From: Meghimatium bilineatum
Taxonomy: Eukaryota > Mollusca > Gastropoda > Stylommatophora > Philomycidae
Assembly (NCBI GenBank): GCA_034231615.1
Contig: CM067315.1
Location: 15,534,513-15,598,512, forward strand
Reading direction: 5' to 3'
Length of the DNA: 64,000 nt
The notes under the pieces were generated by a model. The model worked only from the letters and a program-made list of their open reading frames with translations. It was not told the DNA's origin and made no database searches. Below are positions 9,199-14,800 of the stretch, piece after piece. The position numbers and the translations under genes are program-made. Within the stretch, counting starts at the first letter, position 1; each line of letters begins with the position of its first letter.

Positions 9199-9373
9199 AG
9201 ACAATTTTACCCGCCGAAGACGGATGTGTCGGGCCATTGGCGCAAATAAAACGGTGACACAACGCATTTCCATTCTCTGGACTGCATCCTGCTGGAGATC
9301 TAGTAGTACTGCTACAGGAGAGATCCAGCAGGACTTTGAGAATGAACGCTGAAGAAGAAGAAGACAATTTTAC
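9199..9373 (+). mobile_element. Short GAA-tailed retroposon with 12-bp target duplication
   Basis: AGACAATTTTAC at 9199-9210 and 9362-9373 brackets a 151-bp insert. It starts CCGCCGAAGACGGATGTG and ends ATGAACGCTGAAGAAGAAG. A near-3' inverted repeat (TGCTGGAGATCT / AGAGATCCAGCA) could fold into a hairpin. No Pol III boxes are obvious. Confidence 0.85.
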
Positions 9374-9931
9374 AAGTTGACAGTTATGATATATTTTGGA
9401 CAGTCTCAATAAATACCAATCCATGATGACTATTAAATAAGTACAAAAGTCAATTTTGCTAGACAAATCACAAAACTAATCAACAAGACTAATAAATTGA
9501 TTAGTGGATCATGAAGACATACACACAATAAGCACTGACAGAAAATCTAACACAAGGGAACTGTGATTTTAAAGTGAAGAAATACATTGATTGTAGTTAA
9601 ATAAACAAATAAAATGGAGTGCACTCACAATTAGGGTGATGTGTATTCTATAATATGACTGTGACGACACACGACATGAAATAAACAGTAGAAAGAAGTC
9701 CCTGATCACAGCTTATAAACAAGCAGAAGTTGCATCACAACTAGGCAACTATACATGATTAAAGTATGTGAAACACAGATAGGACTATCTCTTAATTTCC
9801 ATAAGGATCATTTTGTATGTCACCCAAAATAATTATATATTTTCACTCACAATTCTACCCCTATTCTGTATAAAAATTACTTTGCTTATAAGTGGATTAA
9901 TAAAACCAGTGAGTAAAGTATAAAGTAGACT

Positions 9932-10083
9932 GGTTTCATAGAACCAAAGAGTAAAGTATAAAGTTGTTTGGTTTCATAGAACCAAAGAGTAATGTATAAA
10001 GTTGTTTGGTTTCATAGAACCAAAGAGTAATGTATAAAGTTGTTTGGTTTCATAGAACCAAAGAGTAATGTATAAAGTTTAAT
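9932..10083. repeat. 38-bp minisatellite, 4 copies
   Basis: Units begin at 9932, 9970, 10008 and 10046 with GGTTTCATAGAACCAAAGAG. Further decayed half-units flank it. Confidence 0.9.
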
Positions 10084-10089
10084 TGAACT

Positions 10090-11480
10090 AGTGAGTAATA
10101 TACTCGTATATGTAGCAAAACTTGTTTCCTAGTTTGCCTACACAAGTTGAACTAATTTAAACATGAATACCAACCAGAACAGTGTGGCTACATAATCACT
10201 CAGTAGAATATCTTGTAGATCAAAGAATATCATCTGCACTTCAGCTGCAGTAATTGTACAATAAATAATTCTGCAGAACCACAAGAAACCATAATTAGAA
10301 CTACAAGAAATAAAGTTAGCAACTTCATACATCCACTCACATGATGCATGGGAAGATGCTACGCTAAACAGTTACATGGTGCTCTACAGTTTAAAAAAGT
10401 GCAACACTTATGAAAAAACTTGATATGCAGCAGCGTAACAGTGGAGACTAGCTAGTACAACGGGCAGACTAAACACCATCTAAAGTAATCATACCATGAC
10501 TGTATGATTGGCTTAGCTAAGGACCTTTGGGGTTATTAACCAAGGACCATAGGGCTTATTAATCATCTATGAATTCATAGACACGGGACATAAAACTAAC
10601 TGAATATCATAAAATGGATATAACAAATGGTCATCATCACTTGTGATGGATAAAGAACGACAACATTGTGTATCGTAATGTATAATTGGATGTATCACAA
10701 CAGTATTAATTTGGATATGTGTACTGATGTACCATGTTCAATTAGAAGTACTGTTGATTCCCTAGTCTATCCACATGATCATGGGTATCAAGATTTTCTA
10801 TGTTAATGGACAGTTTTTAATCATTGCTAGATCATGTACATGTGCTTTGCTGAGCTGACACTTTCAGCTAGCTGAAGGACTGAGCACCTTGAGTGCATAG
10901 ATTTTCCATTCTAGTGTGTATTCACACACATGCACATAATTTACAGATTATGTTTACATAAAGATAACAATAATAGTGTCTGACACACGACATATAAGTT
11001 CTGATAGAGAGTACAGATGTATGATGATGAATCTACAATATATGGAACTTATATATTTGGTGAAAACAAATAAGCAAGCAAATTCAGCCATCATATGAAC
11101 AGTAAGAAAAGGAAACTAAAAACAATGACTAACAACAGGTTGGAAAATATTTAGTTTGGTCCATTGCTTATGTCATAGTCCTTTGAGAAGATAATCTTGC
11201 ATATTTGTTTGTTCAAGGTTATTCAGGGCAAGTAAATATTCTCTCTTAACTGATTCACTAAGGAGAAAGTTGACCTCTGGATGAAGTTGTCTATAAACTA
11301 TTTGAAAAGTCGATTAACTGGCTTTCTGATAGTTCATGAGCACAGTTGAGCTGACTGAATGGCTCCATGGAGTGAATCAGTTAAAGTGAAATACAAGATT
11401 ATTATCATGAAACAGCTGTAGCCAATTTTGGCTTTTGTCTATGATTGATGAGCTTCATATGTAATATAAAAGCTCAAAGT
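10090..11480. other. Non-coding DNA downstream of spectraplakin
   Basis: A+T-rich sequence past the presumed end of the transcript. I see no gene, clear repeat or splice-bordered exon. Confidence 0.5.
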
Positions 11481-11489
11481 TATGACATA

Positions 11490-11495
11490 TTTATT
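11490..11495 (-). terminator. Candidate polyadenylation signal
   Basis: An AATAAA hexamer on the minus strand about 110 bp after the spectraplakin stop codon, the nearest full-consensus hexamer seen downstream. The 3' UTR would be short. No transcript evidence is available. Confidence 0.4.
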
Positions 11496-11604
11496 CCATT
11501 TTTTTCACATCACAGACATGAAAGACTTGGGAGATAAACTGCACAAGGACACAAAAAGGGGCAGAAAAGGAAATAAAATTAATAAACATTTTTGTTATTC
11601 AGAG

Positions 11605-11852
11605 TCATTTTTTCTTTGCTGGTGCAATTTTAGGAATCCTCGAAAGTTTAGTTACTGTCAATGTTGGTAATGTCACTCTTCGTGTCTGAATAAAATGTGT
11701 TTGCTGAGTGGTCACCACATTGCTACGCTCTCCAAAGTTGTGATCATCAGTCTGTATTGTCGTTGAGATTTCTGTTTGATCGTCAGATGCATCAGAACCT
11801 TTCCGACTTGTGGGTAAACTTTCACTACCTGTGCTGGAATTTCTGCGACTCA
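11605..11852 (-). CDS. Spectraplakin last exon: SxIP tail and stop
   Basis: Acceptor TTCTAG. The encoded 81 residues begin [10 protein letters not shown] and include [10 protein letters not shown], the counterpart of SSRRGSDASDFD in vertebrate MACF1/DST. The end is [15 protein letters not shown] then TGA (11607-11605). SRIP in a basic, Pro-rich context is a standard EB1-binding SxIP motif (residues 827-830). Confidence 0.94.
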
Positions 11853-14800
11853 CTAGAAACACAAAACAAATATAATGATTATTAAATTATCTCCAGTAAA
11901 TAAGTGTATACATTGAGATTAATCTAGAAATAAATTTATACAAATCTACAGAATCCAGGCTGAGGTAAATGTAATTAAATTATGAGTTTGATTGTACATA
12001 CCGGGTACATGGTTTTAACCCATCAGTGTTGAGATTACCATGATTGACATTTTGTTACCAGTGTCAAGCATGGCCTTTAACAACCTCGCAGCAAAGAAAA
12101 ATCATCACATGTGAGACGAAGTATTTAAGAAAAGCAGCTATGGTCACCAAACTGGACAGAGTAAGAAATCAGAAAAAGAGTAGGAATAATGCTGTGTATC
12201 GAATATATAAAACGTCAGCAGATATAGTGGTTTGGTCACCTTATGAGAATGGACCCAAGCCAACTACCACTGAGAGCTTATAACAAACGATCAGCTGGAT
12301 ACAGAGCAAATGGAAGACTGAGAATGAGATGGATTGATAACATCATGACCACCCTCCACAAATATAGACTCAGTACGACTCAGGCATCACATCTGACCTT
12401 GAACAAAAACTTACAGCTCCTACTCCTACACTTAACGGCAAGTGTAGATGCTATCAACCTGGGGATAGACAATAATGTTGAGCTTCCCAGAAACTTTCTG
12501 ACTAACATCATCTTCAGCACATACTCCATCTCTGGGAGCCTCAGTAGTGTAAAATTAAGTAACTCTCCCACAAACTTGGGTTTCAAGTTTATGTGTTATT
12601 TCTGGTTTGAAATAAAAATTATTCCCATGATTCACCCAGCCACAAGAAAATAGGGTATCAGGGCATATGCTCTTGGAAGGTTGAGGAATAGTGCCATTAC
12701 TACTGAGATAGTGTGATGGCAACACTGGTCAGGCAGTCAACGACTGACTAGGAAGCCGAGTACATATTTGAAACTGTGAACTATGACATTGGTTTATGAC
12801 TCAGAATACTTTTACCATACCAATATACTCTAAAACAAGAGTCATCCCTAGACTATCTCAGAACAGGAATCATGGTGTGGCCATCTGTGACCAATCACCA
12901 AATAAGACCTATAAGCAGAATCAAAACAAAGCAGAATCAGCCTTTAGACTTCATGTTGTTCGATTATTTCCATGAATTTCATTTGTCAGCATTGGCAGGC
13001 GACACCTAGGTGATACAAAGTATATAAATAGCAACCAATGAAAATAACAGCAATAATCGAAAACATCAAGCAAACAGGTCGATTATGCTGTTAGATCTTA
13101 TTTAGCAATTGGTCTCTGGGTCAGGTGAATAATGACCAAGATCGTGGTAAGAGGTCAAGAAATGATGACAAAGGTGGAGCCATTCAGATTGGTGACAAAA
13201 GAGCCACCATGCTGTGTGAGTGATGCTGATAAATATGTTTAAATGCACAAGTTAACCTACTAACTATATGAGCATGAATGTTCACTATGCCATGTAATTG
13301 GTTAACACATTGAACGTATACATATCAATGCCAAAGTTGGATGTGTTAAAGTTGATTGATCAATCAACCAATCAAGTGCCATGCCGAGTGGTGTAGGCAA
13401 TCATGCCACAGGAACAACCCATCCAGAAATTTCTCTCTTTTTCTTCCTCTGTCTCGTCTCCCCTTGATCTTTCTGGTCGTTACTAAAGGTTTAAGTTTTA
13501 CTTATCTCACCACAGTCCCTAAAATTCTTGATTGTCTGCTTCTAATTTTTAACCACTATATCACAGATTAATTTAATAAGTTGGCACTGATAAACAAGAT
13601 CAGAACAGTGGTTCGCCAAGGCAGATGTGTTGGGCCATTGGCGCAAATAAAACGGCAACACAACGCATTTCCATTCTCTGGACTACATTCAACTGGAAAT
13701 CTTGTAGGATCATTGTCCTGTTACAAGAGAAATCCAGTAGGAGTTTGAGAATGAAAGCTGAAGAAGAAGAAGAACAGTGGTCACACACCTGTAAAATAAG
13801 CAAATATATTTAGACAGATTGTGGAAGCTCCTTTTCTAAAGAGATCTTAGCTTGTCTTCTAAAGGAATTGGAGTTCAGCTTCCAAAAAGAAATGATCTTA
13901 TTTTACAAAAGAAGGACTTAACCACAACACTTCCTTGACACCTGTAATACAATACAAAATCTATAATTTGCTATTGTAGTCCCAACACTATAATTGAGTC
14001 AAAGGGCATGAGCCCATGCACAGCTGGATCAGCAACCAACCATAATTTGCTATTGTGGATAACATAAAAGTTAACTCTTTGTATTTGGTTCATCTATTAG
14101 ATAGATGGTTGGCTCCACTATTGTATACGGATCATCTATCTAATATATGATAAAGATGGATTTTCATTTGAAGAGTTAGAATATTTTGTCCAATCAAATT
14201 CATTCAAATTTTATTCAGATCATAATAGGGATTCATATTTTCTGAGTGTTTCCAAATTGTGAATTACAACCAGAGCTACAACCAACAGTGCTCTGTCACA
14301 GATGCATCAGAACTGGATAAAATAATGTGATTCTATAATTGTGTGGGAATGTGAGTGTGAATAAGATGACAGATGTCAGTTACCAAACTGAACAAGATCC
14401 TAACGTATTTCCATGTGGTGACCCTGGTAATAGGCTATATTACTAAAGTATAGCTAAGCAAATACTGATTGAGGAGGAAGACAAACCCAGGGCCTTCTCT
14501 TAAAATGAATTTCTTGACTAAAAGGTGTAGATATTTCAGCCTTGGTGCAAATTGTGCAACAATTCTTCTTCTTTTGTTCACTTGAAACATGACTATATGT
14601 GTTGCAACAATTCAAGTTCTTTCAAGGGCAATCAGAAAAATGACAAAGCTCTGGTCTGGCTTGTTGAAATAGCTTACAAATAGAGGCTTACCGGAACTTG
14701 CTAGACCTCTTGGCGTACGTAGCTCTTGTACAACTTTGTGCTTAACAAATGTGCCACCTTCTGGTTGTGTTTTTGACATGCTCCAGTGCACTTCTTCTGT

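Follow-up and report, generated by a model that had tools for sequence, protein, structure and literature searches.

How does a retroposon of about 155 nt, with no recognisable RNA polymerase III (Pol III) promoter, come to have a fixed 5' end? The question is raised by a 64,000-nt stretch of the genome of the gastropod Meghimatium bilineatum (assembly GCA_034231615.1, 1.61 Gb in 32 contigs; contig CM067315.1, here C18:15534513-15598512), referred to throughout as the window, in which a first-pass annotation had pointed to short copies ending in (GAA)n. The element, here called type A, is a real, discrete, headless retroposon lineage, non-coding and 151-160 nt long; the earlier observation is confirmed, and the inference of a short lineage that moves without an obvious A/B box is borne out in large part. 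Type A fits the description of a minimal satellite, within a group built around a GAA-tailed long interspersed element (LINE), better than that of an offshoot of the short interspersed element (SINE) at 40537, since the module with which it begins spans at least four GAA-tailed families and, via the families B and S, the leader of that LINE.

Type A copies and their fixed 5' end

A profile built from the window copies finds seven of them in the window, the weakest at 57.7 bits, compared with at most 7.8 bits in 20 shuffled windows. The copies are listed below with their type A profile scores.

9199-9210 (no strand): 5' target duplication AGACAATTTTAC of the next copy; its 3' counterpart lies at 9362-9373
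9211-9361 (+): type A, full length; 12-nt duplication; 168.8 bits, positions 1-159
13613-13770 (+): type A, full length; 11-nt duplication; 155.3 bits; clade support 0.999
24354-24505 (+): old type A copy; 75.0 bits
25875-26003 (+): old type A copy with internal deletions; 56.2 bits
50259-50418 (-): type A, 5' start kept, 3' end lost at another repeat; 114.4 bits
56404-56487 (+): 5'-truncated type A copy starting at model position 61; 47.8 bits
63650-63807 (-): old type A copy, weakly like the 25875 copy upstream; 118.4 bits

The ends claimed earlier for the two full-length copies are as described: an exact 12-nt AGACAATTTTAC flanks the 9211 copy on both sides, an exact 11-nt AGAACAGTGGT is found at the 13613 copy, and both copies terminate in GAAGAAGAAGAA. 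As a control, 10 of 5000 random pairs from the window share at least 11 letters. The minus-strand copy, which had been said to share the start point, runs from 50418 to 50259 and does start at the same letter (CCACCGAAGACGG); a duplication was sought around it and not found (longest shared run 6), its 3' end being lost at 50259, at the start of another repeat.

The fixed start holds genome-wide. A search with the 9211 copy, of whose 305 candidates 40 were scored, gave loci L001-L030, and the 33 copies in them start at, or a few letters from, CCGCCGAAGACGG or a variant. Target duplications scoring at least 8 accompany 24 of the 33, compared with 24 of 323 pairs of swapped flanks; all 24 lie within 5 nt of the first letter of the element, 17 of them at -2 to +1 nt. 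This set is biased towards full-length copies, and for that reason 20 ten-kb stretches at round coordinates, picked before inspection, were taken as a random sample. Their 195 kb without N hold 13 type A copies (one shuffled version gave no type A match at E 1), from which we extrapolate an estimated 1e5 or so copies in the genome. Window and random copies together start at positions 1, 1, 1, 1, 1, 2, 2, 3, 3, 3, 3, 4, 4, 4, 6, 6, 9, 37, 61 and 86 of the 160-position model, so that 16 of 20 begin at 1-6 and the smooth spread expected of plain truncation is absent. A search with the 3' 61 nt alone (40 of 197 candidates scored) was sampled by fetching the first 12 places absent from the 9211 search, a choice that leans towards truncated copies; these start at 1, 1, 1, 2, 2, 2, 3, 3, 34, 77, 83 and 91 (8 of 12 at 1-3). 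At the other end, GAAGAAGAA is present in 37 of the 49 copies that start by position 6 and reach position 150.

Empty sites and subfamilies complete the picture of a mobile lineage. Queries for empty sites were the 26 copies, out of 53 candidates, with an exact duplication of at least 8 nt; within the collected loci, 10 of the 26 joined flanks match an uninterrupted relative across the junction. The copy at L041:4331-4173 sits in the GAA-tailed LINE itself, its empty site matching the LINE of the window, L034, L043, L047 and L031. Two headless subfamilies have shared diagnostic letters at separate insertion sites: one unites the 13613 copy with L025, L041 and L046 (support 0.999), the other the 9211 copy with that of L002 on contig C10 (0.949), which also has the loop deletion of the 9211 copy. 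Target duplications of variable sequence, fixed insertion ends and a simple-repeat 3' tail, all seen in type A, are the marks of a non-LTR retroposon inserted by target-primed reverse transcription.

Longer relatives and the question of truncation

The module also occurs in longer families. Type B is a 280-nt GAA-tailed retroposon that starts CGCCCGTGTGTTGCC, has flush duplications in several copies and is without a tRNA head; 16 of the 44 B-profile matches in the sample start at positions 2-8. Type A over its full length is homologous to the last 135 nt of B (the A profile matches B over positions 3-159, at up to 49.2 bits). Family D (L008:829-999, L032:8146-8321, L035:3594-3420) has the same module behind a long, different head and is either another GAA-tailed retroposon or a LINE fragment. 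Types B and S are represented in the window as follows.

1200-1422 (+): type B copy whose head has a deletion, with the module starting at about 1287; B profile 25.7 + 175.9 bits, in two pieces
15387-15619 (-): type B copy that breaks off at model position 239, where a different repeat adjoins it (15387); 219.1 bits
30706-30953 (+): type B copy, model positions 3-278; 168.2 bits
40538-40890 (+): S element, about 200 nt of a different head, then the module (from about 40742) and a GAA tail; 15-nt duplication; module 56.4 bits with the B profile

The S element is the longer SINE that the first-pass annotation credited with the type A module behind a separate head. The head is indeed a different one; the match of the module to the A profile is confined to about the first 70 nt (40747-40819).

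Might type A copies then be 5' truncations of a longer SINE, made by a reverse transcriptase halting at the module edge? Such a reading has the support of 10 of the 44 B-profile matches, which start at model positions 138-144; three of the ten come from other families (D twice, S once) and L042:8433 has a piece of B head further upstream. It is also helped by a weak likeness among the flanks of old copies, a point that counts against a lineage headless from the outset: with 110-nt flanks from six window copies and a remnant at 13329, 6 of 21 pairs reach p<0.03, the best being 63807 with 25875 (p 0.0057), in a test more lenient than BLAST and covering 78 pairs in all, B pairs included. An older form of type A may thus have been longer. 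A profile of the 63807 and 25875 flanks found no third copy in the collected loci. Against truncation stand the 51 near-full copies (start by position 6, more than 100 bits), whose 150-nt upstream flanks have no shared head by BLAST at E 0.01, only two matches of 14-15 nt, so that most copies do not reach into the long head. The B profile matches three of these 51 flanks: L042_9031 in antisense, L054 ending about 70 nt away, and L030 adjacent, a weak match (E 0.013) where the type A copy appears nested in a B-type copy whose remainder follows. The body of type A is, moreover, its own and distinct from that of B, and there are headless subfamilies that have expanded. For the young copies, the starts, flanks and subfamilies therefore lead us to reject plain truncation from the long SINE, which they largely refute; overall, we regard truncation as very improbable.

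Some observations on individual copies deserve record. The stretch at 13256-13340 bears a weak resemblance to the start of the module and to the flanks upstream of the old copies 25875 and 63807; it may be what is left of an older, longer form. From 15619 to 15006 (-), a B-type copy runs to model position 239 and continues, in place of its own 3' part, as the 3' end of a LINE-like repeat; this junction at 15387 could be due to template switching. Two opposed B-type copies, 62943-63084 (+) and 62948-62816 (-), meet at the module/head region. B-type copies at L035:4552 and L047:311 start at the module edge, with imperfect duplications read by eye, which is suggestive of a 5'-end hot spot at this edge in other families too. 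A tRNA-like head for B was considered at 1150-1199, where the letters resemble a tRNA D-arm by eye; it was judged to be flank, since other B copies start at CGCCCGTGTGTTG with nearby duplications (L003, L008, L043).

Promoter, known-RNA and folding signals in type A

The earlier remark that no A/B box is visible agrees with a direct test: the best box pair in type A has 6 mismatches and is equalled by 257 of 300 shuffles, compared with 1 mismatch and 0 of 300 for a tRNA control. Boxes in B and S are likewise at chance (178 and 264 of 300 shuffles as good). Type A thus lacks the head that defines a classical SINE, a tRNA-, 5S- or 7SL-like sequence with Pol III A/B boxes. Scans for a ribozyme like that of hepatitis delta virus (HDV) found none in type A under a strict descriptor, and under a loose one 17 of 60 shuffles were as good; the starts of A, B and S show no HDV-like fold above chance.

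A retroposed cellular small RNA (tRNA, 5S, 7SL, snRNA or snoRNA) is a further candidate for the origin of type A. Its size, its structure and an ACACAA between two hairpins recall H/ACA RNAs by eye. No ACA box precedes the tail on the same reading, ARAGORN finds no tRNA in the window, and Rfam gives no match above threshold: nothing at E 5, other ribozymes included, for the L042 copy of type A, a B copy or S, and sub-threshold matches only for the 9211 copy. We consider such an origin very improbable.

A hairpin near the tail had been proposed, and it appears in the consensus fold. Within type A it is nearly invariant; it is supported by a single A-T/G-C exchange that separates the consensus sequences of A and B, read by eye (CATTCTC/GAGAATG vs CGTTCTC/GAGAACG). 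RNAalifold, run on 51 type A copies alone, predicts hardly any structure: 5 pairs at -0.81 kcal/mol, of which none falls in the tail hairpin. Covariation within type A is almost nil, as is expected of dead copies.

A GAA-tailed LINE and the shared module

The LINE to which the module leads ends CATGTTTCAAGTGAACGAA(AGAAGAAG)n, in the window and elsewhere, and two pieces of it lie in the window.

44170-46774 (-): 3' part of the LINE, an 857-aa frame with reverse transcriptase and RNase H (RVT_1 1.6e-39, RNase_H 1.9e-15), then about 20 nt and (GAA)n
14563-14602 (-): a further copy of this LINE, 3' end with (GAA)n; 92.5% over 40 nt

The longer piece is 98.8% identical over 2590 nt to the copy at L034. 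Full-length copies of about 4.06 kb are found at L034:4862-8916 and L047:5638-9669, each with an exact 12-nt duplication; that of L034 has a 1144-aa frame for endonuclease, reverse transcriptase and part of RNase H, the rest lying in another frame. The first 199 nt are identical in 40 of 40 scored places, L034 itself included (40 of 1680 candidates scored). Judged by these at least 40 identical 5' ends, the GAA LINE is recently active.

HDV-like ribozymes are recognised by a P1 that starts at the first letter, by P2, P3 and P4, and by C-N-A-A in J4/2. The LINE folds in this way from its first letter, with P1 of 7, P2 of 6, P3 of 3 and P4 of 7 bp and CTAA in J4/2; 0 of 200 shuffles match the strict descriptor, and 14 of 60 match a loose one, none as well. 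The fold is not reported by Rfam. The LINE appears, on this modelling, to start with a predicted HDV-like ribozyme.

The leader of the LINE also resembles two of the other families. S aligns with its nt 67-191 and B with its nt 77-189, in overlapping alignments; 0 and 1 of 1000 shuffles, respectively, score as well. Type A, B, S and the LINE have a common frame, GCYGAAGnCGGA followed by one letter, a helix arm, an inner hairpin and the second arm, after which A, B and the LINE continue with one letter and ACGCAT. The arms are GTGTCG/CGACAC in A, GTGTCA/TGACAC in B and S, GCAACC/GGTTGC in the LINE and GTGCTG/CAGCAC in the D copy of L008, with 6 of 6 Watson-Crick pairs in each; between B and the LINE, 4 of the 6 pairs are changed on both sides. 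Six such pairs at a fixed offset would arise by chance at an estimated (1/4)^6 or so per family. By comparison of these sequences, this is one helix, whose letters differ among A, B, D and the LINE and whose pairing is mostly kept. How far the module lies from the 5' end varies: 1 nt in type A, about 144 in B, about 205 in S and about 124 in the LINE.

How type A may be copied

The 3' ends of type A and the LINE both have TGAACG and (GAA)n. Given the GAA tail and the module shared across the group, type A likely uses the GAA LINE, the 3' likeness being short. Whether it is also a minimal trans-mobilised parasite of this LINE, co-transcribed with its surroundings and 5'-processed at the module edge, we hold to be an even call. 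Its RNA would have two structured parts: a 5' module of about 57 nt, related via B and S to the LINE leader, and a 3' part in which a long hairpin ending TGAACG, a few letters and (GAA)n resemble the LINE 3' end. The LINE protein would recognise the 3' hairpin and GAA tail and prime on a target TTC; stringent 3'-end recognition is known from earlier work (PMC3747384). The 5' module would be bound in the ribonucleoprotein particle (RNP). Since no usual promoter is seen in type A, it may be copied within the transcripts of its surroundings. The predicted ribozyme may release the 5' end of the LINE, and the 5' end of type A could come from processing, for instance by trimming that halts where the folded, bound module begins. 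Comparable 5' trimming to a folded, bound edge occurs in the maturation of intronic snoRNAs. Co-transcription with processing is preferred because the families differ in how far the module is from their 5' ends, because the partner LINE appears to have a 5' ribozyme, and because type A stops exactly at the module edge. More tentatively, and as a doubtful extension, a module of the LINE leader, freed from the LINE, may have become the core of a complete parasite, RNP-binding and 5'-end-forming, with no promoter or tRNA head and a processed 5' end; the module would then be the domain conserved across all these SINE-like families.

To the likeness among old flanks, other points that weigh against this account must be added. 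No alignment through the module joins type A to the LINE leader: the best match of type A there lies elsewhere and is equalled by 21 of 1000 shuffles. The three D copies do not align through it either, with matches equalled by 204, 930 and 15 of 1000 shuffles, the third of them again at another place. The link to the LINE thus goes through B, S and the helix. That helix has one wobble pair in the D copy of L032, and one broken and two wobble pairs in that of L035; its arms were placed by eye, with GGA as the left-hand anchor and ACGCAT or AACG as the right-hand one, and MAFFT across families misplaced the 3' arms. At the 3' end, the letters common to LINE and SINE amount to about 20 nt including the GAA repeats (E 0.055 for B, 0.57 for A). 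The ribozyme descriptor was drawn up after the fold had been seen, and the scans of type A found no ribozyme or trimming signal. The sub-threshold Rfam matches of the 9211 copy number six, the best being Gut-1 on the minus strand (E 0.0018, 26.8 bits, 50 needed).

The main rival is an internal promoter missed by the A/B scans, either an unusual Pol III or an RNA polymerase II (Pol II) promoter, with the 5' end of type A as the transcription start. It falls short of an even chance, and we rate it nearly as likely as processing. A Pol II internal promoter is familiar from trypanosomatid Pr77 elements and from insect Jockey/I elements. Related non-LTR elements show that such an arrangement works: Pr77 serves both as internal promoter and as ribozyme (PMC4035085; PMC8190864; PMC4748587), and Sadhu, which has no A/B boxes, starts its transcription at or near its own 5' end (PMC2848041). 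The fixed 5' end and headless subfamilies of type A would fit equally. The varying distance of the module from the 5' end in A, B, S and the LINE is unsuited to a core promoter acting at a fixed distance, and type A at +26 to +34 (ATTGGCGCA) is unlike the consensus of the downstream promoter element.

Comparison with known elements

In the open literature, to which coverage was limited, none of five strings of module letters was found in a paper and no description of the type A family was recognised; IMG/VR, where relatives were sought, gave no exact match to two patterns. Sadhu of Arabidopsis resembles type A in being non-coding, in having target duplications and neither A/B boxes nor likeness to tRNA or 5S, and in being presumed LINE-mobilised, as proposed here for type A (PMC2848041). 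It differs in its length of about 900 bp and its poly(A) tail, compared with about 155 nt and (GAA)n, and the excerpt mentions no LINE-leader module (PMC2848041). Because of Sadhu, SINE-like retroposons without A/B boxes must be counted as already known.

The short internally deleted elements NARTc, RIME and SIDER of trypanosomatids, with their L1Tc/ingi partners, are also non-autonomous, and their partner LINEs have endonuclease, reverse transcriptase and RNase H and, as is predicted for the GAA LINE, an HDV-like ribozyme; they have 5' and 3' parts in common with the LINE and begin at its 5' end with the ribozyme/promoter (PMC4035085). Type A, unlike these, starts at an internal leader module corresponding to about nt 124 of the LINE and has no HDV-like fold. 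It is therefore not a short internally deleted LINE derivative of the kind that begins at the LINE 5' end. The conserved domains of the V, Deu, Ceph and other SINE superfamilies stand behind tRNA or 5S heads with Pol III promoters. These superfamilies resemble the type A group in combining differing heads with one conserved module (PMC6887750). Type A differs in being module, hairpin and tail only, and its group in that B and S tie the module to a LINE leader. R2 and other LINEs with 5' HDV-like ribozymes, where the fold lies at the first letter as in the prediction for the partner LINE, compare with that LINE only (PMC3774820); R2, unlike that LINE, is site-specific. In octopus, RTE LINE and SINE fragments occur in transcripts, and the excerpted part of that work holds nothing on a type A family (PMC9115989).

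Other features

An open frame with SGRRTPD-like repeats lies in the window at 47681-48319 (-); it includes what we take to be a spectraplakin-like stretch and is perhaps a host exon region. PF08266, the protocadherin-type cadherin domain, has 23 matches, many of them in long open frames, as would suit a mollusc.

Implications

Type A is a retroposon of very high abundance in which no Pol III promoter is recognisable. To our knowledge, the function and origin of the conserved central domains of SINE superfamilies are unsettled; here one conserved module is traced, via B and S, to the leader of a LINE that the sequences indicate is recently active. Should the internal promoter prove true, the module would act at the DNA level as well as at the RNA level. 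Since type A starts exactly at the module and contains little else, the role of the module in protein binding, 5'-end formation or transcription start should be directly testable.

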